A stretch of DNA of 20,087 nt from a virus, in IMG/VR virus record IMGVR_UViG_3300025057_000060, positions 1 to 20,087 of that record; one strand, 5' to 3'. Made by a program: the position numbers and the translations under genes. The notes under the pieces were generated by a model. The model was not told where the DNA came from. It saw nothing but the letters and a program-made list of their open reading frames with translations, and searched no databases. Position 1 is the stretch's first letter. Each line of letters opens with the position of its first letter. This document shows, piece by piece, positions 1 to 13,188 of this stretch.

Positions 1-616
1 ATAGCAAACGCAACTTGTCTTTGTCACTAAAAAAGCACCAGTTTTTTTCTGCCTTCCCATCCACGTGGTTTTGACCAACGGGAGGGTACAGAGCGTCGAC
101 GAGTTCTCCAAACTCATTAATTTTTCCTACACATACTTTCGGAGACTTAACCATTACGGACTTGTTCGTATCCCACTTCGATGCGTACGAACTTGTAACA
201 AATTGTCCGTAAAGCTCATCGTCTGGAGTTAAAAACAAGCGTGGGTCTTCGTAACTGAGTCGATGAGGCTTGCTGCGTAATTTTCTGGCTGCCAGAATTG
301 TGTCGTCATTATGTAGCTGTCCGATATAAATTTCTGTAGGCGTGTTGTTGTAATAGAAATATTTCATATCGTGCCGGAAACAGAAAGGCTCTGGTTGAGC
401 TCTCCATGCAATAACTGTGTGTCCTCTGTGTTTGATGATTGACGGACTAAAGTTAGCTAAATGGTTTTTATCTAAACCTTTACTAATTCGTACAAAAGAA
501 CCCCCAAGATCATCTGCTTGTTTGTACACATTAGGAACTCCTTTTTCAGGAGTTATTTTAAGAGGATGAGTTACGTAAGAATAGGCTGTGTGATAACGAT
601 GGTGTTGAGTACTCAC
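1..616 (-). CDS. Beta-propeller glycosidase/phosphorylase-like protein (partial, N-terminal part)
   Basis: This minus-strand reading frame starts with GTG at 616 and stays open for 205 codons to the window edge, so the C-terminus is missing. The GTG overlaps the TGA stop of the upstream glycosyltransferase by four bases (GTGA), a typical translational-coupling arrangement. Visible motifs are NFSPSI (about residues 55-60), AWRAQ (70-74), YEDPRLF (122-128) and EKNW (190-193). Their order and spacing resemble the blades of five-bladed beta-propeller glycoside hydrolase or phosphorylase-like proteins (GH130/GH43-type folds), where an acidic-Pro-Arg motif lies near the sugar site. The assignment rests on motif resemblance only; the catalytic residues cannot be confirmed in a truncated protein. 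Its position behind a glycosyltransferase suggests a role in making or trimming a glycan. It could also be a sugar-binding protein without catalysis. Confidence 0.55.
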   Translation of the reverse strand, partial: MSTQHHRYHTAYSYVTHPLKITPEKGVPNVYKQADDLGGSFVRISKGLDKNHLANFSPSIIKHRGHTVIAWRAQPEPFCFRHDMKYFYYNNTPTEIYIGQLHNDDTILAARKLRSKPHRLSYEDPRLFLTPDDELYGQFVTSSYASKWDTNKSVMVKSPKVCVGKINEFGELVDALYPPVGQNHVDGKAEKNWCFFSDKDKLRLL

Positions 617-1785
617 TTGCACACCTCCTCGATAGCTTTTTCAAATCCTTCGGCAATCTTGTCCCAACGGAAAGCTGGGTTTTGAGTAATTTTATAACAT
701 TCTTGTGCTGTGTGATCTAGATACTCTTTGTCTTCGTACAGACAAGAAAGAAGATCAGCAGCGTGGTTGACATCGATTAGTCCTCTTTCGACTCCCAGAT
801 CTTTGTCACGTACCCATGCTGCGACATCGATTAAACATGCGCTGTTTTTCCAAATATCTTTGCACGAGGTGTGATTTGGTACGACCTGGGCTCGTTTGCA
901 AGAGGCATGTTCAAAAGGAACAAGACCCCAACCTTCTCCATCAGCTGTATTAATCCCCACGTTGCATGCGCTATAGATTTTATTTAGAAGTTCATCAGGC
1001 GGAGCGTTTGTGTAATTTATATTGTTTGAAGTCATAATCAGTCGGTTATCTGGAGCGATATTTAAACGATTCATCTCAGATTCAAACAGCTCCCGTACGC
1101 TCCACCCGAGGTCTTTCTCGCTCATATGCAGATAAAGCATAGTATCAGGCTTATCCACAGCGAACTTTGCAAAGGTCTTGATCGTTAAGTCAATCCGTTT
1201 GCGTGGTTGATTCCTATTAGCGTTAAGAACTATAAATTTATCTTTAGGAAGTCCTAGTGCTTTCCGAGCTTCTTCGATGTCAATTTCATAAAATTTTGCA
1301 GGGTCAATTCCATGAGGGAGAACTGCAAGGCTTTTTGGCTGCACGCCGTGAGCCATGATTCGTTGAGCTTGTTCGATTGTGAACGTGATCGGAAAGTCCC
1401 AGTCTTTGATAAACCGCATCATAGATGCTGTATACCATTCAGAGTCAATAGGGAAGTATGGAATAAATTTAAATTTAATTTGATCTTTAAGAAAGTGTAT
1501 GCGCTCCCACACCTGATTAACGATCCAGATGTCGTTTAAGCAGATAAATACATCAGGCTTCTCCTTTGCTACGACGTCAGGTAGTCGTCCAATACCAAAA
1601 CGATCAGAGGGGTTTGCTGCTGTAGCTGGATAAACCTTAAAAGGTAAATCGTGAGGATCTCCCATGTAGTTGATCCCAAACGCAACTACCTCATTATTTT
1701 TATTCAAGTGCTCTAAGATACTATGAGTTACACGAGCAAAGCCTGTGTTAGAAAGGATATCCCCGTACCAGAGAATTTTTGCCAT
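613..1785 (-). CDS. GT4-like (GT-B fold) glycosyltransferase
   Basis: The protein is about 390 aa, read from ATG at 1785. It begins MAKILWYGDILSNTGFARV, the glycine-containing N-terminal loop expected of GT-B enzymes. A C-terminal Rossmann half carries LNANRNQPRKRIDL (the start of the donor domain) and DGEGWGLVPFEHASCKRA, which matches the EX7E-type donor-binding motif of retaining GT4 enzymes. It is predicted to transfer a sugar from a nucleotide-sugar donor in the cytoplasm; donor and acceptor are unknown. The frame is also open to a more upstream ATG at 1884, but that start would add 33 residues with no family resemblance and run 54 bases into the divergent terminase gene, so 1785 is preferred. 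Its stop overlaps the start of the glycosidase-like gene. Confidence 0.8.
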   Translation of the reverse strand: MAKILWYGDILSNTGFARVTHSILEHLNKNNEVVAFGINYMGDPHDLPFKVYPATAANPSDRFGIGRLPDVVAKEKPDVFICLNDIWIVNQVWERIHFLKDQIKFKFIPYFPIDSEWYTASMMRFIKDWDFPITFTIEQAQRIMAHGVQPKSLAVLPHGIDPAKFYEIDIEEARKALGLPKDKFIVLNANRNQPRKRIDLTIKTFAKFAVDKPDTMLYLHMSEKDLGWSVRELFESEMNRLNIAPDNRLIMTSNNINYTNAPPDELLNKIYSACNVGINTADGEGWGLVPFEHASCKRAQVVPNHTSCKDIWKNSACLIDVAAWVRDKDLGVERGLIDVNHAADLLSCLYEDKEYLDHTAQECYKITQNPAFRWDKIAEGFEKAIEEVCK

Positions 1786-1830
1786 AAAGCTGTAGAATCT
1801 TGCTAACAGTATACAGACAGTTTTAGGGAT

Positions 1831-3357
1831 ATGCCTAGCCGAGAGACATTTGCTTATCGCCGTGCTTTGAAGCTTCGCGCTCAACGCGCTGTGGAAGACT
1901 CAAGCAATGGTTCAACAGTAGATAATGTTTTTAGTCGCGCACAGAATGATTTTGCGACTTTTTGTACGCTTATGGATAAACCTCCAGCACAGCATATGCT
2001 TCAATGGCATAGAGAGCTTGTGACTGGAGAAAGTAACAGGTACTTGCTTGATATTGCTGGCCCTAATACAGATATTTTGAGTCCACGAGGTTCAGCTAAA
2101 TCAACTTGTTTGAATTTATTTACTGCTTGGTGTATTGGTCGTCACACAGCTGCACAAAGACCTTTGCAGATAATCTACGTATCGTACAACGTCGCCACAG
2201 CAATACCAAAAAGTCGCATCATTAAACAGATTGTCGACAGTGCAACTTTTAAAAAAATCTTTCCTACCTGTAGGCTTAAGCCTGGTATGCAGAGCGATAT
2301 AGGTTGGTCTATTGATTTTGAGTACGCAGGAATACCTCGTGTAGGTGATGAGGAATTTACGCTACGTGCTGCAGGTTTGCGCGGTAGTATTACAAGTAAG
2401 CGAGCGCATTTGTGTATAGTAGATGACCCTATTAAGAGTAGTACAGATATACGCAATCCGGCAATTCGCGAAGAGCAGAACTCTAACTGGAGTAGTGTTA
2501 TTGCTCCGATTATTTTTGAGGGCGGTCGGTCGATTTGTCTTGGCACTCGTTTCCACCCGTTGGACATCCATAAAACGATGTTTATCCCTCAGAAGGGCTG
2601 GAAGCAGGTGGTTCAAGAGGCGATTACGTATAACGATGCAGGAGAACCGATTAGTTACTGGCCTGAGCAGTGGTCCGTGGATTACCTGCTTCAGCAAAAA
2701 GAACTTGATCCGGTAGCGTTCGCGTATCAGTACCAGCAACAGCCTGTGATGACTTCGGATCTGGTCTTGTCGCCAGATTTGATTGTGAAAGGTGAGGTTG
2801 TCACTGAGTTTGATTCTCTTGCTGTTGGGATCGACCTCTCGGCAAGTAAGAATGAAACGTCTGACTACACAGCATTTGTGTTGGGAGGTAGGTTAAAAGA
2901 TAAGTATTACATTATTGATTCGCATCAGGTGCGCTCCATCGGCAACCTTGAGAAAATTGACTTGTTGTGCGACATGCTTGTCGAATGGGGTATCCTTCAG
3001 TTGCAGGATGATCAGTACTTTCCCACTTACTCCACGGTGACGCTTGTTGTTGAGGCTGTTGCGTATCAAGCTTCTCTTGCCGCTGACCTTAGACGTGTGC
3101 TGCTAAACGAGCGTGGCTTGAGCAACCTCCATATTCACGAAGTTAAAGGTTTTAGAGGAGACAAGGTAGCTCGATTCCGAGGAACTTTAGGCTTGTTGGA
3201 AAATAAAAAAGTCATTTTTAATAAATACAGAAAGTTTGACGCGCTTACCGATCAGCTTGTTAACATAGGTGCTACCTCGCATGATGACTTACTAGACGCA
3301 TACACTTGGCTAATGACGTTTTTACAAAAACGCGGCAACTTCTCCATCGAATACTGA
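1831..3357 (+). CDS. terL: Terminase large subunit (DNA packaging ATPase/nuclease)
   Basis: This is the motor that cuts concatemeric phage DNA and pumps it into the prohead through the portal. The 508-aa protein has both expected domains. In the N-terminal ATPase, the Walker A motif SPRGSAKST is at residues 84-92, the Walker B motif LCIVDD at 194-199, and a coupling-type motif LGTRF at 237-241. In the C-terminal RNase H-like nuclease, the acidic residues are D335 in GIDLS, E408 in VEAV and the HDDLLDA cluster at 484-490. Length and motif order fit a complete, active enzyme. It is divergently transcribed from the glycosyltransferase, with only 45 bases between the two start codons, and is followed after one base by another glycosyltransferase-like gene. 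No small terminase subunit is recognisable in the window. Confidence 0.95.
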   Translation: MPSRETFAYRRALKLRAQRAVEDSSNGSTVDNVFSRAQNDFATFCTLMDKPPAQHMLQWHRELVTGESNRYLLDIAGPNTDILSPRGSAKSTCLNLFTAWCIGRHTAAQRPLQIIYVSYNVATAIPKSRIIKQIVDSATFKKIFPTCRLKPGMQSDIGWSIDFEYAGIPRVGDEEFTLRAAGLRGSITSKRAHLCIVDDPIKSSTDIRNPAIREEQNSNWSSVIAPIIFEGGRSICLGTRFHPLDIHKTMFIPQKGWKQVVQEAITYNDAGEPISYWPEQWSVDYLLQQKELDPVAFAYQYQQQPVMTSDLVLSPDLIVKGEVVTEFDSLAVGIDLSASKNETSDYTAFVLGGRLKDKYYIIDSHQVRSIGNLEKIDLLCDMLVEWGILQLQDDQYFPTYSTVTLVVEAVAYQASLAADLRRVLLNERGLSNLHIHEVKGFRGDKVARFRGTLGLLENKKVIFNKYRKFDALTDQLVNIGATSHDDLLDAYTWLMTFLQKRGNFSIEY

Positions 3358-5085: not shown

Positions 5086-5895
5086 GTGCTAATTGACACT
5101 TTTACATACTTCAATGAAAAAGAAATTCTTGAGCTGCGTGTACGCACTCTAGAGAATTATGTGGACGGTTTTTTGATTGCAGATGCGAACCGCACCCACC
5201 GTGGTGAAGAAAAGCCTTTTACTTGCTTAGACACGATTCGGGAACTTGGGCTTCCAGAGGACAAAATTCAAGTTCTGCACGTTGAGCTTCCGCCTGTTGA
5301 AGAAGTTGCCGATCCTTGGGTTAGGGAGCGAGGTCAGCGCGATGCACTTGGCGTTGGCCTTCACATGATGCCAGACGATACCTTTTTTATCTGTTCGGAC
5401 TGTGACGAAATCACAAACCCTGAGATTATCGAAGAAGCCAAGCAAACAGTTCTAGATAATCCAGAAAAGATTGTGCGCTTGAGTATGTCCATGCACTATG
5501 GACGAGCTGACCGCCAGCTTCAGTCTCCTAATGGTGAGTTTTTTAACTGGCGTTGCGGCACAGTTTGCACCGTGGGACAACTTAAGAGCTTTGGAACTCT
5601 TTCTTCTCTGCGTGCGTCAGATAACAACTTTTATGTTGGTGATCGGAACGCTGGTTGGCACTTGTCTTGGATGGGCGATGCCGGTCGCCGCAAGGCAAAG
5701 TTGAAGTCATTTGCTCATTTTGAATGCGATACGCCTGCTGTGAACGAAATGTGTGATAACTTTGAACCTAAGCTGGGTTCTATCGATATGCTTGGGCGTC
5801 AAGATCACATTATCGCCGAGTACCCGATTGAGGATTTGCCTCAAGAAGTGCTTAAAATAGAGAGAGTCAAAAAGTATCTGTTACCCGATGGCTAA
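5086..5895 (+). CDS. GT17-like glycosyltransferase (N-acetylglucosaminyltransferase family fold)
   Basis: The 269-aa protein begins with GTG and reads MLIDTFTYFNEKEILELRV, followed by VDGFLIADANRTHRGEEKPF. This is the characteristic N-terminus of glycosyltransferase family 17 (PF04724), whose eukaryotic members are beta-1,4-N-acetylglucosaminyltransferases. RGQRDALGVGL (about 82-92) and ICSDCDEI (about 102-109, the DxD metal-binding site) follow in the expected order, so the protein looks complete and active. The acceptor is unknown; in phages such enzymes may glycosylate virion proteins or host surface polymers. No good ribosome binding site precedes the GTG; instead there is a short inverted repeat (GTCAG/CTGAC at 5066-5083). 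The 3' end overlaps the next small gene by eight bases. Confidence 0.85.
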   Translation: MLIDTFTYFNEKEILELRVRTLENYVDGFLIADANRTHRGEEKPFTCLDTIRELGLPEDKIQVLHVELPPVEEVADPWVRERGQRDALGVGLHMMPDDTFFICSDCDEITNPEIIEEAKQTVLDNPEKIVRLSMSMHYGRADRQLQSPNGEFFNWRCGTVCTVGQLKSFGTLSSLRASDNNFYVGDRNAGWHLSWMGDAGRRKAKLKSFAHFECDTPAVNEMCDNFEPKLGSIDMLGRQDHIIAEYPIEDLPQEVLKIERVKKYLLPDG

Positions 5896-6040
5896 TAAAA
5901 TGCCTGCGGAACTTCTGGAGAAGTTCAAGCAAAAACGAGAAGAGACCAAGGCTCCCAGCGGCGACGAAGCCAAAGTAGAAAAGCGCAAAAGTGCTCGCGA
6001 CAAAGCTCGTAAAGCTAAGGAAATGCGCAAAAAAGACTGA
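5888..6040 (+). CDS. Small highly basic protein (50 aa)
   Basis: An ATG at 5888 opens a 50-codon frame that overlaps the end of the GT17 gene by eight bases and stops 11 bases before the portal start, exactly filling the gap. The product is almost entirely charged, about 40 percent Lys, Arg or Glu (for example EKFKQKREETKAPSGDEAK, later RKSARDKARKAKEMRKKD), and is expected to be a single long helix or disordered. Such a Lys/Arg-rich peptide could bind DNA or act as a small head component, but nothing specific can be assigned. The tight fit between neighbours and the biased composition support a real gene. Confidence 0.65.
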   Translation: MANKMPAELLEKFKQKREETKAPSGDEAKVEKRKSARDKARKAKEMRKKD

Positions 6041-6051
6041 AGTGACTCTTA

Positions 6052-8277
6052 ATGGCCTCTAGTACTGAAACCAGGACTCGATTTGAGGAGATCTTAGAGG
6101 CTTCGCGGACTCAAGATCGTTCTAATCAGTCCGCAACGATGGTGGTGTTGAGCCACATCCAGCAGATGACCCTTCTGATGATCAAGAAGGGTCTCACTTT
6201 TTACTGCAACCAGGACACTTACAACAGCAGAACTTCTTTTTTACAAGATATTATTGCGTTGAATAAGTTGGATATTCGCTTTCCAGCGATTATTCGAAAC
6301 TTTTTGATCGACGGGTGTGGTCTGTTCTACTTCCGGCCTGATCCAAAACTCAAATATCAAATCTATTTTTTTAATAAAAACCAGTATCGGGTTTACCACG
6401 ACCTTAACGGCAACGTAGAAGAGGTCGTAATTCTCTACAGCTACAAAGTTAAGAACCGTAACTTAGGTCTTCCGGCTAATTCTTACGGTCAAAACAAGCG
6501 TTATGTCCGTTTGACCATCACGGCGGACGAAATTAACGAAATTGAAAGTGATACTGAGCTTAGTTTTGAGCTTGAGCCGGGTTCCGTACTGACTCCAGCT
6601 AAAACTCGGCCCAATACACTCGGTTTTGTGCCTGCTGTAGAGGTTTTAAACAAGCCAAACGCGAGTGGAACTGAGGGAGAAGGCGAATTTGACCCGTTTA
6701 TGGAGCAAATTGTGCTCCATGACCAAATTATTCGCAATGTTGCCAAAAATATCGAGTTTTTTGGCAATCCGACGCTAATTAGCTCTCGTCCACGTAGTGA
6801 TCTTGTAGAGGCTAGCGACGCACAAAACACGTTTAGGCCCACGATCAGTAGTCAGAGCGGTTTTGCGGGTCCTGACACGCCTTCGACGCGGGTTAGCGAG
6901 CCTTTTGGGGCTGGTATGGGTAGTGGGCTCCGCGTTCCACGGATTATCGCGAACGTCGAGCCCTCCGATCGTGTGGGCTACATGACCCCTGACCCGGTCA
7001 GTGGGGATATGAACCGTTACGCACTTCTGTTGCGTGAAGAGATTCGTACAGCTCTAGGCGGCGTTGACGAAATCTCTATTTCTGCCGGTGCTACCGCTAC
7101 GGAGATCAAGGGTTTGATGGGTCGTGCCCAAGCCACGGCTCTTCGCAAAAATAAAGGTTTCCTGGTATACGGTTTTTGCCGTTTGTTGGAGATGATGATT
7201 TATCACCAGGAGGTTATTTTCCGTGAGTCGTTTATCGCGGCTATGGGTTTCAATGAGCCCAAAATTCCCACAGAGCAGACTGAAGAGAATGCTGAAAAAT
7301 ATCAAAACTCGATGCGTCGATTTAACAAAAAAGTCGACGAAGCGATGCGCGATGCTCTCGCCAAAAACAAAGTCCCGCGCGGCGTTGTGGGTTTACCTGA
7401 GGACGGCGACCGTGCTGTCTCTTATCGGTTCCAAGGCGACGTCTATGAAGATACTGCATACGATGTGAATCAAAAATCCATCGTTGTTCGAAATCTTCAA
7501 GAACTAGGTGTAGACTCAATTGAAGCGCTGAAGTACTTATTCCCAGATAAAACAGATTCAGAAAGAGCCGAAATGTTGAAGGGATTTCCCTTCAGAATGG
7601 TTCAACAAACGCAAGCAGCAATGCAACAATTTCTGGTATTATTAAGCCAGATGTTGCAGTCTCCGCATCCTCTTGCGCCTGATCAACCACTAGCGGCTGA
7701 TCCTAGACTGAATGTCACTCCGCTCCTTTATAGGACATTCGATCACCTTGCGGAAGAATTAACTTACTCGGGTAGCTATGAGCCAGCAGATCCAAGCTTC
7801 AACCCCGAGCCCGGTCTCCCCGGCGGCAGCCCCGGCGGTATCCAGCGACCAGGGCTCAACCGCCTACCCCCAGTGGGTGGCCCAAACAGCTACCCCGGCG
7901 GTAGCTTCGGTACCTACAGCCCAACCGCCGTCGCAGGCGGCACCAGCTACGGTCCCTTCTACCAACAACCAGTTCAACCCGTCAACGTCTCCGTCCTCCC
8001 CCAGCAACCCGTGGGAAGCAGCGATGGGGTCCTTGGAGCGGGTCCTGTCGAATATTCCAGCCCAACAATCCCTCAGCCAGGCTCCACAGTATCCGAGCCA
8101 GGTTCAACAGCCGGTTACTCAACCAATCAGTCAGCCTTCACAGGTCCAGCCTTGGGCTTACCAGGCACAGCAGGTAGCGCCGACCTCGTATACCAGCGCC
8201 TCACCAACCCAGACTTCCTCTCCGGTTTCTACGGACCAGCAGGCGGGTCTAACCAACGTAAGCGCCGAGGTCGTTAA
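6052..8277 (+). CDS. Portal protein with long Gly/Pro-rich C-terminal extension
   Basis: The 741-aa protein lies between the terminase block and the scaffold/capsid genes, the expected place for the portal, the dodecameric ring at the head vertex through which DNA enters. Portal-like features are an N-terminal alpha/beta region with FLIDGCGLFYFRPDPKLKYQ and a later helical segment with EEIRTALGGVDEISISAGAT, followed by EIKGLMGRAQATALRKNKG and a long stem-like helix. From about residue 575 the protein changes to a low-complexity tail (PGLPGGSPGG, GGPNSYPGGSFG) ending in the basic stretch RKRRGR. These last ~166 codons also encode the scaffold-like protein in another frame. The extension may have arisen by overprinting and is not typical of portals. 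The portal identity rests on synteny and partial motifs, not on a full alignment. Confidence 0.75.
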   Translation: MASSTETRTRFEEILEASRTQDRSNQSATMVVLSHIQQMTLLMIKKGLTFYCNQDTYNSRTSFLQDIIALNKLDIRFPAIIRNFLIDGCGLFYFRPDPKLKYQIYFFNKNQYRVYHDLNGNVEEVVILYSYKVKNRNLGLPANSYGQNKRYVRLTITADEINEIESDTELSFELEPGSVLTPAKTRPNTLGFVPAVEVLNKPNASGTEGEGEFDPFMEQIVLHDQIIRNVAKNIEFFGNPTLISSRPRSDLVEASDAQNTFRPTISSQSGFAGPDTPSTRVSEPFGAGMGSGLRVPRIIANVEPSDRVGYMTPDPVSGDMNRYALLLREEIRTALGGVDEISISAGATATEIKGLMGRAQATALRKNKGFLVYGFCRLLEMMIYHQEVIFRESFIAAMGFNEPKIPTEQTEENAEKYQNSMRRFNKKVDEAMRDALAKNKVPRGVVGLPEDGDRAVSYRFQGDVYEDTAYDVNQKSIVVRNLQELGVDSIEALKYLFPDKTDSERAEMLKGFPFRMVQQTQAAMQQFLVLLSQMLQSPHPLAPDQPLAADPRLNVTPLLYRTFDHLAEELTYSGSYEPADPSFNPEPGLPGGSPGGIQRPGLNRLPPVGGPNSYPGGSFGTYSPTAVAGGTSYGPFYQQPVQPVNVSVLPQQPVGSSDGVLGAGPVEYSSPTIPQPGSTVSEPGSTAGYSTNQSAFTGPALGLPGTAGSADLVYQRLTNPDFLSGFYGPAGGSNQRKRRGR

Positions 8278-10182: not shown

Positions 10183-10291
10183 TTGTTTATTGACAACGAC
10201 TTTCCCAAAATCTTAGGTGCTGAACTGTACCGTCCCCACCCCGCATACATCGTAGAGATGGCTGCGGAGCCTGTGGTTGTTCACGATTTCT
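10183..10291 (+). CDS. Major capsid protein, exon 1 (N-terminal 36 codons)
   Basis: Exon 1 starts with TTG at 10183, preceded by GGAAG at 10172-10176. A TGA at 10177-10179 is immediately upstream in frame, so no earlier start is possible. It reads MFIDNDFPKILGAEL, then YRPHPAYIVEMAAEPVVVHD and F, and then enters the intron. In unspliced RNA the frame runs into TAA at 10300, about nine bases past the splice site, giving only a ~39-residue peptide. Joining to exon 2 at 11268 restores the frame (DF-LLTKALKAKQPG) and gives a 378-aa protein. The splice position is inferred from the P1 hairpin and the terminal intron G; a boundary a few bases away, giving HD-LTKAL, is also in frame. Confidence 0.8.
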
Positions 10292-11267
10292 TGACCTGCT
10301 AAGGTCTGGGAACTTCCGAGTGAAAGCTCGGTCGAACAACTCCGTGAATTGCTGGAACGCCGGACCCGTAAGGGAGGCCAATCAGCAGCCAAGCCAGCCC
10401 GAAATGGTTGGAAGGTTCAACGACTAACACTGCTCGAATGCTCTCTCGAAGCGACCGCTCCTTTTTGAAAGGTTCTTGCTTGGGCGATGGGTGTCTCCGA
10501 CACCAGGTGACTTATCCGAGTCTCTACCTCGCTCACTCTAAAAAGCAGTTTGAGTATCTCCGCTGGAAAGTGGGGCGCCTCAACAGAATTTTTGGAATAA
10601 AGCAGCCTATAAAAGAAAGGATGTGCACTAATCAATCAGGGGAACACCCTGGTTGTCAGTGGTGGTCAAATCAACAAGAGCTGCTGCTTCCTCTGTATAA
10701 GGAGCTGTATCCACAAGGGAAGAAGGTTTTGACTCCTTCTTTTCTTCGTGATATCGGTTTAGAAGGTCTAGCTGTCCTCTATATGGATGATGGCAACCTG
10801 AATCTCCGTAAGCGTGGCCAGTCCACGCAGACCGGTGAACCTTACATCAGGGAGCGCATTGTAGAGCTGGCTTTATATGTCCCGTACGATACAGCTCTGT
10901 TTGTGTCGGATTGGATCGAAAGCTTAACCGGTGCCTCATTGACTCCACGGGAGCCGATGAAATCGAAGAGTCCCGACAAATGGAATCTTCGCGGCAACGG
11001 GACTCAAGCTCGGTTATTCGTAGAGGCTTTAAAGCCTTACGGATGTAAAGCCATGGCTTACAAATTCGACCTCCGTTACGACACTCGAACCAATCGAGGA
11101 AAGTCGAAATGGAGCGAGGCTGACCGCAACAAGTTTGTTGTAGAAGCCGATAAGGTGACACGAGCGCGGAGCACCCAAACAGAAGGTAATCCTTGCTGTG
11201 GGTGATGATATAGTCTACTCATCAACGCCCTTAAGTTGATGTTACGTGAGGATAAAGAGCCTCACGG
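10292..11267 (+). ncRNA. Group I self-splicing intron in the major capsid gene
   Basis: The conserved core is readable. P-like GAATTGCTGGAA is at 10346-10357 and Q-like CAATCAGCAGCC at 10379-10390, with GCTG/CAGC forming P4. R-like GGTTCAACGACTAA is at about 10414-10427 and S-like GATATAGTC at about 11207-11215; GACTA in R pairs with TAGTC in S to form P7. P2 is CCGAG/CTCGG at 10316-10331. P3 pairs TCGAACA (10332-10338) with TGCTCGA (10431-10437), one mismatch. P1 pairs exon TTCTT with GGGAA (10308-10312), then GACCT with AGGTC. After S come two hairpins, CATCAAC/GTTGATG (11220-11241) and CGTGAGG/CCTCACG (11245-11266), followed by the proposed terminal G at 11267. The endonuclease gene sits between R and S, in the P8 region. 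The exact 5' and 3' splice sites are inferred. Confidence 0.9.
10438..11205 (+). CDS. LAGLIDADG homing endonuclease encoded in the intron
   Basis: The protein is 255 aa from ATG 10438; the frame is open from TTG at 10408, but that start lies inside the intron R element, so 10438 is preferred. Two LAGLIDADG motifs are present: FLKGSCLGDGCL near the N-terminus and LEGLAVLYMDDGNL about 105 residues later. This is the double-motif, single-chain arrangement in which each motif supplies one catalytic acidic residue (GDG and DDG). Such enzymes make a double-strand break in intron-less alleles so that the intron is copied in. A basic C-terminal region and the motif spacing fit a complete, probably active enzyme. 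The stop TGA at 11203-11205 lies next to the S element, so the ORF fills the loop between the core elements. LAGLIDADG enzymes are less common in phage group I introns than GIY-YIG or HNH types. Confidence 0.9.
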   Translation: MLSRSDRSFLKGSCLGDGCLRHQVTYPSLYLAHSKKQFEYLRWKVGRLNRIFGIKQPIKERMCTNQSGEHPGCQWWSNQQELLLPLYKELYPQGKKVLTPSFLRDIGLEGLAVLYMDDGNLNLRKRGQSTQTGEPYIRERIVELALYVPYDTALFVSDWIESLTGASLTPREPMKSKSPDKWNLRGNGTQARLFVEALKPYGCKAMAYKFDLRYDTRTNRGKSKWSEADRNKFVVEADKVTRARSTQTEGNPCCG

Positions 11268-12295
11268 TGCTTACTAAAGCATTAAAGGCGAAGCAACCCG
11301 GCCAGACTGTACAGCTTGATCGTTACCGCTTCTTCGGTAACCCCGGCTCCAAAGAATCTCGGGAACGCACAGCCGAGCAGACCATCGGTACTGCTAACAG
11401 CCGTAACATCGTGAAGGACAAGGTCCTGGTGACTCTTAAGGAGTACACTGGTCCTGCTGATCCGTCCGATCCTACCCAGCCTTCTACCTTTAAGATTGCG
11501 CGTGAGACCCTGATTACCGCCCAGCGTCTGCTGCTGGACACCGGTAACCTCACCACTTTCCACCAATCCATCGGCAGCCTCACCCTGCTTGACGACTACC
11601 GTCGCTGGCGTGATCGGGTGTTCATCAACGAACTCCTGAAGGCTGTTTCTAAGGGCCAAGCTTCTGATTCCCAGGGCGGTTACTACTTCCCCGGCGATCA
11701 GTCTGTTGGTTCTCTGAGCTATACCAACGCCGAGCAAGCTAAGTTCGACGTCAAGGACGACCTCCTGCGTGTGGTCAAGTCCCTGCGTAAGCGCAACACC
11801 CCGACCTACCAGGACGGTTTCTATCGTTGCGTTTGTGATCCCACCTTCCTGATGCACCTGCGTCAGAACAGCGACTTCCGCGAGGTGGCCCGTTATCCCG
11901 GTAACGGTCAAATCAACCCGCTCATGTCCGCAATGCAGCCCAACGCTGCACTGTACATGGGTCAAGGCTTCGGTCAAGCCACTTTCGTGGCTGGCGAGCC
12001 GATCATGCCGACTGGCTTTGTCTTTGAGGGTGTGCGATTCTTCGAATCCACCAACATGCCTTCCCAGACCCAGAGCGCAGATATTGCTAGCAGCACCGCT
12101 GACTACAACGCTGCGATCGGTATGTTCTTCGGTCCTCAGTCGGTTGGCGTGGGCATCGGCGGTAACAACGCTCAGGTGCTTCTCAACAACAACGACGACT
12201 TCAGCCGCTTCATCATGATGATCTGGAGTCTGTACGCTGGTTTCGAACTGCTCAACGCAGATTTCGTGACCGTTGCCTACTCTTTCGACGCTTGA
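11268..12295 (+). CDS. Major capsid protein, exon 2 (bulk of the protein)
   Basis: Exon 2 supplies about 342 codons of an HK97-fold-type major capsid protein, starting with the codon shared with exon 1 and LTKALKAKQPGQTVQLDRYR. The region GFYRCVCDPTFLMHLRQ followed by FREVARYPGNGQ resembles the N4-gp56 and related capsid families; the end is MIWSLYAGFELLNADFVTVA. The codon use is strongly C-ending (ACC, AAC, CTG), unlike the flanking genes, which fits very high expression. An ORF finder would start at GTG 11246, giving a false N-terminus (MRIKSLTVL) that is really the last intron hairpin; exon 1 provides the true start. Family assignment is by resemblance and position. Confidence 0.8.
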
Positions 12296-12301
12296 GGAGG
12301 T
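12294..12301 (+). promoter_or_regulatory. Strong Shine-Dalgarno site of the gene after the capsid gene
   Basis: GAGGAGGT overlaps the capsid stop codon (TGA at 12293-12295) and lies eight bases before ATG 12310. It is one of only two near-perfect ribosome binding sites in the window; most other starts have weak or no such site. Confidence 0.85.
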
Positions 12302-12309
12302 AACTAACG

Positions 12310-13188
12310 ATGGCTATTAATTCCAACCAGCTCCACGTTGCCAAGATTTACCCCGGCAACTATACCAACGTTCTTCGTTACTGGCACGAAGAAAAAACCA
12401 TGCAGTTCGAGAACGCCAATGGCGTTCAAACGAGCTACACCAACCAGCCCGTTGGTGGCCCTGTGGGCGTGGTCTTCCGTCCCGGCTGGATTGCCCAACA
12501 GGCAATCGGCTATGTGGATCTGAGCTACCAAGCTTTGGGCACCAACAATCAGCTGGCTTACTACACCCGTCCTTACGGGTCTGGTCAGAACTCTGCTGAA
12601 CAGCCCTTCCTGAACGCTGACGTTATCATCCCCTCTCCTGACTTCCATAAGGATGTGCGGGCTGATATCACCGACGGCATCAAAGTTCCTGCCACCGCTT
12701 ACGTTTATCGTGCTTCTCTGCGCGTTGACGGCGGCGATGTGGTGAGCAGCGGTGTTGCCGGTGGCTCTGCTACTCCTCAGCTTTCCCTGGTTCCCGCTGT
12801 GGGCGAGGGTCTGCTTGATGATGGCACTGTCGTGTCTGGTCAGTTCGGTGTGTCTGTGACCGGCGCTTCCAGCCGGATCGCTAACGGAAGCACTGCTTCT
12901 GTGAATATCATCGACTCCAGCTCCCTCTCTGCTCTGTCTGCAGAGACCCAGTGGAAGCTGTTCACCACCACCGACCTTGGCGGTGCTGCTGCTTCTGGTC
13001 TGGCTCAGGGTTCGGGTATCTACGATCCTCGCGCCGGAGTCAACAAGCTGTCTGGTAACGACAAGGCTCTCGCTATCTGCGAAGTCTGCTGGATCGTTCC
13101 CGACGAAGCTCCTGAGCGTCAAGCCGTGGCTCTTCAGCCCGATGGCCTCATCGAGTCCTCTGCTTATACCTCAACCACGCCTGCTTGA
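12310..13188 (+). CDS. Abundant virion structural protein (probable head decoration or shell protein)
   Basis: The protein is 292 aa, immediately downstream of the capsid gene, with a strong Shine-Dalgarno site and the same C-ending, high-expression codon use. The sequence is beta-rich with Gly/Ser/Ala loops (VGGPVGVVFRPGWIAQQAIG, then ASLRVDGGDVVSSGVAGGSA, then VSVTGASSRIANGSTASVNI). No catalytic motifs or membrane segments are seen. Expression features and position suggest a stoichiometrically abundant virion protein such as a decoration or capsid-stabilising protein, although a tail-tube protein cannot be excluded. A strong terminator follows, so the capsid gene and this gene probably form one transcription unit. 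Confidence 0.7.
   Translation: MAINSNQLHVAKIYPGNYTNVLRYWHEEKTMQFENANGVQTSYTNQPVGGPVGVVFRPGWIAQQAIGYVDLSYQALGTNNQLAYYTRPYGSGQNSAEQPFLNADVIIPSPDFHKDVRADITDGIKVPATAYVYRASLRVDGGDVVSSGVAGGSATPQLSLVPAVGEGLLDDGTVVSGQFGVSVTGASSRIANGSTASVNIIDSSSLSALSAETQWKLFTTTDLGGAAASGLAQGSGIYDPRAGVNKLSGNDKALAICEVCWIVPDEAPERQAVALQPDGLIESSAYTSTTPA

Follow-up and report, generated by a model that had tools for sequence, protein, structure and literature searches.

The window, as we call the whole analysed stretch of 20,087 nucleotides, is IMG/VR record IMGVR_UViG_3300025057_000060 from an uncultured S-EIV1-like virus. Its plus strand carries a split major head protein gene (10183–12295) made up of exon 1 (10183–10291), a group I intron (10292–11288) and exon 2 (11289–12295). 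Exon 1 begins with TTG and contains codons 1–36 and the first base of codon 37; it translates as FIDNDFPKILGAELYRPHPAYIVEMAAEPVVVHDF. Exon 2 matches the family phrog_1357 ('major head protein') with an E-value of 3.8e-22, an intact homologue matches it with 1e-22, and the gene lies in a head-gene cluster, with terminase and portal-like genes upstream. Judged by this profile match and gene order, the product of 10183–12295 is the major head protein. The AlphaFold2 model of an intact homologue, built from a shallow alignment, has a mean pLDDT of 32 and is unusable for judging an HK97 fold, and a search of PDB sequences with the capsid profile returned no match.

The nearest cultured relative with the same capsid gene is Synechococcus phage S-EIV1 (L001, KJ410740), which is 67% identical to the window capsid in exon 2 (over 95% of the ORF) and 89% identical in exon 1. 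Unlike the window, S-EIV1 has no detectable group I intron, and its counterpart of exon 1 runs straight into exon 2. The preliminary description had exon 1 start at TTG 10183. This holds, as homologues without the intron, S-EIV1 among them, have exons 1 and 2 in one piece and N-termini that match exon 1. The start codon itself varies: TTG is found in the window and in its nearest empty relative (L147), ATG in L018 and L007, and GTG in S-EIV1. The S-EIV1 capsid gene (in the region 11815–13041) is misannotated in GenBank, where the minus-strand ORF AHV82227 overlies its 5' half and AHV82228 covers its 3' part only; its true start is a GTG near 11890. Elsewhere in these genomes, the large terminase of S-EIV1 (5111–7651, 846 residues) contains an intein (PF14890), while none is seen in the window terminase (1831–3357, 508 residues), and glycosyltransferase genes (Glycos_transf_1; family 17) lie on either side of the window terminase region at 613–1884 (minus strand) and 5086–5895 (plus strand).

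Splice junctions and RNA structure of the intron

The intron is 997 nt long and is bounded by a U at the end of exon 1 and the omega-G 11288. The 5' splice site follows U10291, which forms a U.G wobble with G10308 in P1, and this pair is kept in 22 of 22 alleles, in agreement with the hairpin proposed earlier for the 5' junction. The 3' splice site lies at 11288/11289. Close intron-less alleles read GTTGTTCACGATTTC TCG AAG CAA CCC GGC at the junction, and the window join that matches them places GATTTCT before and TGACC after the 5' site, with ATTAAAGG before and CGAAGCAACCC after the 3' site. The predicted spliced junction is thus GATTTCT/CGAAGCAACCC, which can also be written as GTTGTTCACGATTTCT/CGAAGCAACCCGGCC. 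A purpose-written spliced-alignment program, constrained to exons ending in U and introns ending in G, returned the same limits (10292–11288). The joined exons encode 371 residues, of which 369 are identical, in a gap-free alignment, to the intact relative L006, and it is this near identity that fixes the junction at 11288/11289.

The preliminary description had put the 3' boundary 21 nt too early, at 11267/11268, and had consequently given the intron 976 nt and the joined protein 378 residues. That junction is in frame and 11267 is likewise a G, but its product carries LLTKALKA where a single S stands in the 371-residue version. The seven added residues are absent from all 146 intron-less loci, each of which has exactly 48 nt where the carriers are interrupted. 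Furthermore, bases 11268–11281, which would be exonic, form the covarying hairpin P9.2, and in alleles interrupted at the same site (site B; e.g. L045, L072, L115 and L227) the sequence before the true 3' site varies while the hairpin is kept. We therefore regard a group I intron with the earlier boundary as very improbable and retain 11288/11289.

The Rfam group I model (RF00028, Intron_gpI), named in the preliminary description as a check, matches 10271–11241 over its full length with an E-value of 9.9e-9 and a score of 41 bits, which is below the gathering score of 50 bits. The shortfall is presumably due to an ORF insert of ~750 nt, as L115, a copy of the window intron in which the ORF is naturally eroded, scores 78.5 bits and so exceeds the gathering score. 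The core helices P3–P9 with a conserved P7 are present and are supported by covariation among 22 alleles: compensatory double changes occur in 25 of 69 helix pairs, a total that excludes one wrong P8 extension, compared to 2–4 in slid controls.

P1 (10287–10312) pairs the exon bases UUUCU (10287–10291) with the internal guide GGGAA (10308–10312), and its inner stem, GACC (10293–10296) with GGUC (10303–10306), is 100% paired with double changes in all four pairs. The anatomy derived from relatives lacking the ORF also includes a P2. P3 (10340–10345/11166–11171) is 100% paired in the 22 alleles, with double changes in two of six pairs. Rfam had placed the 3' strand of P3 in the window near 10570; this placement was rejected, as the ORF-less copies put it at 11166–11171. 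P4 (10350–10355/10382–10387), which encloses P5 within 10350–10387, is 100% paired and invariant, and P6 with P6a follows at 10388–10416 (P6a is 98% paired, with double changes in three of six pairs). P7, GACTA (10422–10426) with TAGTC (11211–11215), is exactly the pairing proposed before; it is invariant and 100% paired in all 22 alleles and by homology is the guanosine-binding helix. P8 (11172–11176/11200–11204) is 100% paired, with double changes in two of five pairs; a guessed extension of it was paired in only 2% and was dropped. P9 (11220–11241; 100% paired) and P9.1 (11245–11266; 99% paired) each show double changes in four of seven pairs, and the terminal hairpin P9.2 (11268–11281), which is missing from intron-less alleles, is 98% paired with double changes in three of five.

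The unspliced frame runs into a stop a few codons past the 5' splice site, so a capsid protein that includes exon 1 requires splicing. One could instead imagine that the intron is no longer spliced, that translation of exon 2 begins internally, for instance at GTG 11246, and that exon 1 is a relic: 11246–11288 and exon 2 do form a single open frame of 349 residues. In codons 5–35 of exon 1, however, purifying selection is undiminished in intron-bearing alleles (pN/pS of 0.031 in 18 of them, compared to 0.035 in 85 without an intron), an argument for working splicing. The covariation of the intron helices also speaks against a loss of splicing, making this explanation barely credible.

The homing endonuclease gene and probable mobility of the intron

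The intron contains a LAGLIDADG homing endonuclease gene (HEG) on the plus strand at 10438–11205, which encodes 255 residues from ATG 10438, the frame being open from TTG 10408. It is inserted between the 5' strand of P7 and the 3' strand of P3, and its 3' part overlaps the latter and P8. We take this slot to be the P7.1/P7.2 place of IA-type introns, to which the intron would then presumably belong. The translated product matches PF03161 with 54 bits (cut-off 25; E about 2.5e-14 to 2.7e-14) as well as phrog_11023, and carries two motifs, FLKGSCLGDG and LAVLYMDDG, at residues 9 and 111. This bears out the earlier description, which had a LAGLIDADG ORF lying between R and S. With a median dN/dS of 0.09 over 221 pairs, sequence comparison indicates that the gene is under purifying selection. 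Its relatives comprise 36 loci in phage contigs; among 84,980 genomes of bacteria and archaea no cellular source turned up, only one weak fragment of 36% identity, and PDB sequences gave no match. Some copies of the window HEG are decaying: L084 has a stop near the end, L198 a frame break, and in L115 erosion has left an intron of only 384 nt, a pattern as in the homing cycle.

The presence of the intron varies among close relatives. An exon-1 pattern, which is blind to site A carriers, sampled 114 resolvable loci, some from recurring records, of which 95 lack and 19 contain an intron at codons 31–49 or nearby; a few of the 'empty' loci (e.g. L020) have a codon-5 intron. Hence ~83% of the sampled alleles are intron-less at the sites covered by the pattern. 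In a DNA tree of distal exon 2, the window (site B) groups with L018 (site C), L147 (empty) and L121 (site A) with an SH-aLRT support of 99, and site-B presence requires 11 changes on this tree, at least seven of which are forced by strong branches. Allele pairs that are 93–99.5% identical distally and differ in intron state show 87.5% identity over the first 100 compared nt of exon 2 and 87.3% over exon 1, whereas intron-less pairs of like distal identity reach 93.8% and 92.1%, the pairs in this comparison being mutually non-independent. Lower exon identity near the site is what co-conversion would leave. All these sequences are metagenome assemblies, in which chimeras are possible, yet each of these introns is met again and again in independent contigs.

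The site B intron has a close counterpart at site B' (L046, L065, L082, L115 and others), 2 nt away and with a different P1 and guide sequence. The two are sub-lineages of one intron, and their HEGs are 81–91% identical. L208 is mixed: its P1 is of the B type and its 3' exon of the B' type, and it seems to depend on the second U.G pair of P1. L004 (2696–4043) carries two capsid introns: the one at codon 31 lacks a HEG and is 334 nt long, while the one at codon 37 has the full 997 nt.

Taken together, the window very probably contains a mobile group I intron that interrupts the major head protein gene of an S-EIV1-like cyanophage in codon 37 (phase 1), a reading that includes predicted self-splicing, a restored 371-residue protein and homing. 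In its main point, the preliminary description, which saw a LAGLIDADG-encoding group I intron in the major capsid gene, is thus strongly supported. Most likely, the intron excises itself from the late transcript and thereby ligates U10291 to C11289, which restores the 371-residue protein. Intron-less capsid alleles of co-infecting relatives are the most likely targets of the LAGLIDADG enzyme; after cleavage, repair would copy the intron with flanking exon sequence into the cut allele. In phage PhiPA3, an intron-encoded enzyme is reported to contribute to competition between co-infecting phages (PMC11620839). By analogy, a similar role could hold for the capsid intron.

A further proposal was a coupling of splicing to late gene expression, with a regulatory intron that times late-phase synthesis of the capsid protein. 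Apart from that initial inference, a phage psbA intron has been reported to affect expression. In near-identical phages, however, the site is empty or the intron sits elsewhere in the capsid gene, and the prevalence of intron-less alleles also stands against a regulatory role. The intron would seem dispensable, given that in close relatives a protein with 99.5% identity comes from an uninterrupted gene. We consider a regulatory function highly unlikely and the proposed coupling without support; a mobile element remains the preferred reading.

Intron sites across the capsid gene lineage

Among the IMG/VR relatives, group I introns occupy ~15 positions of the same capsid gene: codon 5 (phase 0), 19 (0), 22 (1), 31 (2), 36 (2), 37 (1), 41 (0), 49 (0), 54 (0), 89 (1), 108 (0), 145 (0), 278 (0), 293 (2) and 344 (0), where codons 19, 41, 54 and 293 are numbered after the homologue L210. 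Four introns are resolved within one capsid gene in each of L208, L193 and L224, and L193 has a fifth Rfam match just ahead of codon 4. L120 contains at least four, one of which is not cleanly resolved; its spliced alignment is ambiguous between codons 36 and 49 and was left out of the site count. The codon-108 intron distinguishes L223 from L224. Several capsid introns are HEG-less mini-introns that score above the Rfam cut-off. All long intron ORFs tested are of the LAGLIDADG type: sense LAGLIDADG_2 genes are found at codons 19, 37, 49, 89 and 108, and antisense LAGLIDADG_3 genes at codons 31 and 278 (L007, 3108–3935, minus strand; L193, 9761–10690). In 25 whole records (1.63 Mb, S-EIV1 included), 14 of 14 RF00028 matches fall in the capsid gene, and all 14 records that have no match carry a capsid gene that is intron-less at these sites.

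The presence, absence, HEG decay and stacking of introns across the ~15 sites are typical of the homing cycle. A bolder idea is that in S-EIV1-like cyanophages the capsid gene is the sole arena in which LAGLIDADG group I introns have radiated, with at least seven of the ~15 sites bearing ORFs and with enzymes aimed at a conserved gene, where they would cut the capsid allele of co-infecting rivals. We offer it tentatively and think it somewhat less probable than its negation.

Relation to known systems and significance

It was fair of the preliminary description to call a capsid-gene insertion with a LAGLIDADG enzyme less usual, but capsid-gene introns, as a class, are already known from mycobacteriophage LittleE and crAss-like phages; the window intron does not found a new class. 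Splicing of the LittleE capsid intron was demonstrated by RT-PCR and N-terminal sequencing, and its type was called 'unclear, most likely group I' (PMC3706429). Like the window, LittleE has a major capsid gene split by a group I-like intron whose ORF is LAGLIDADG-related, with a U at the exon end and a G at the intron end, but its ORF is antisense and 177 residues long, whereas that of the window is sense and has 255 (PMC3706429). The antisense arrangement recurs in relatives of the window, in the LAGLIDADG_3 genes of L007 (site A) and L193. In the Delta and Zeta groups of crAss-like phages, the MCP gene likewise carries one to several group I introns, and one Zeta MCP is in five fragments (PMC7886860). 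Unlike the window lineage, where all detected introns are in the capsid gene, these phages have Bacteroidetes hosts and spread introns and inteins over many genes (PMC7886860). Cyanophage group I introns with homing endonucleases are also found in Pf-WMP3 (DNA polymerase) and in S-SRM01 and S-CBWM1 (psbA), but these host genes are not capsid genes, and the Pf-WMP3 enzyme, I-PfoP3I, is an HNH enzyme. We found no earlier report of capsid introns in S-EIV1-like cyanophages in the literature searched, the scope of which left aside the description of S-EIV1 itself.

The concentration of introns in the capsid gene is the more interesting part of these observations. Gene callers break the capsid gene, which is misannotated even in the intron-less S-EIV1, so capsid-based surveys miss or truncate it. 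The natural alleles that are near-identical save for their intron state (empty, A, B or C) provide a ready set for tests of homing, co-conversion and phage–phage interference. In the S-EIV1-like lineage, the most abundant virion protein is encoded by a gene that can bear up to four or more introns, presumably self-splicing, and their splicing must therefore be very efficient or cheap.
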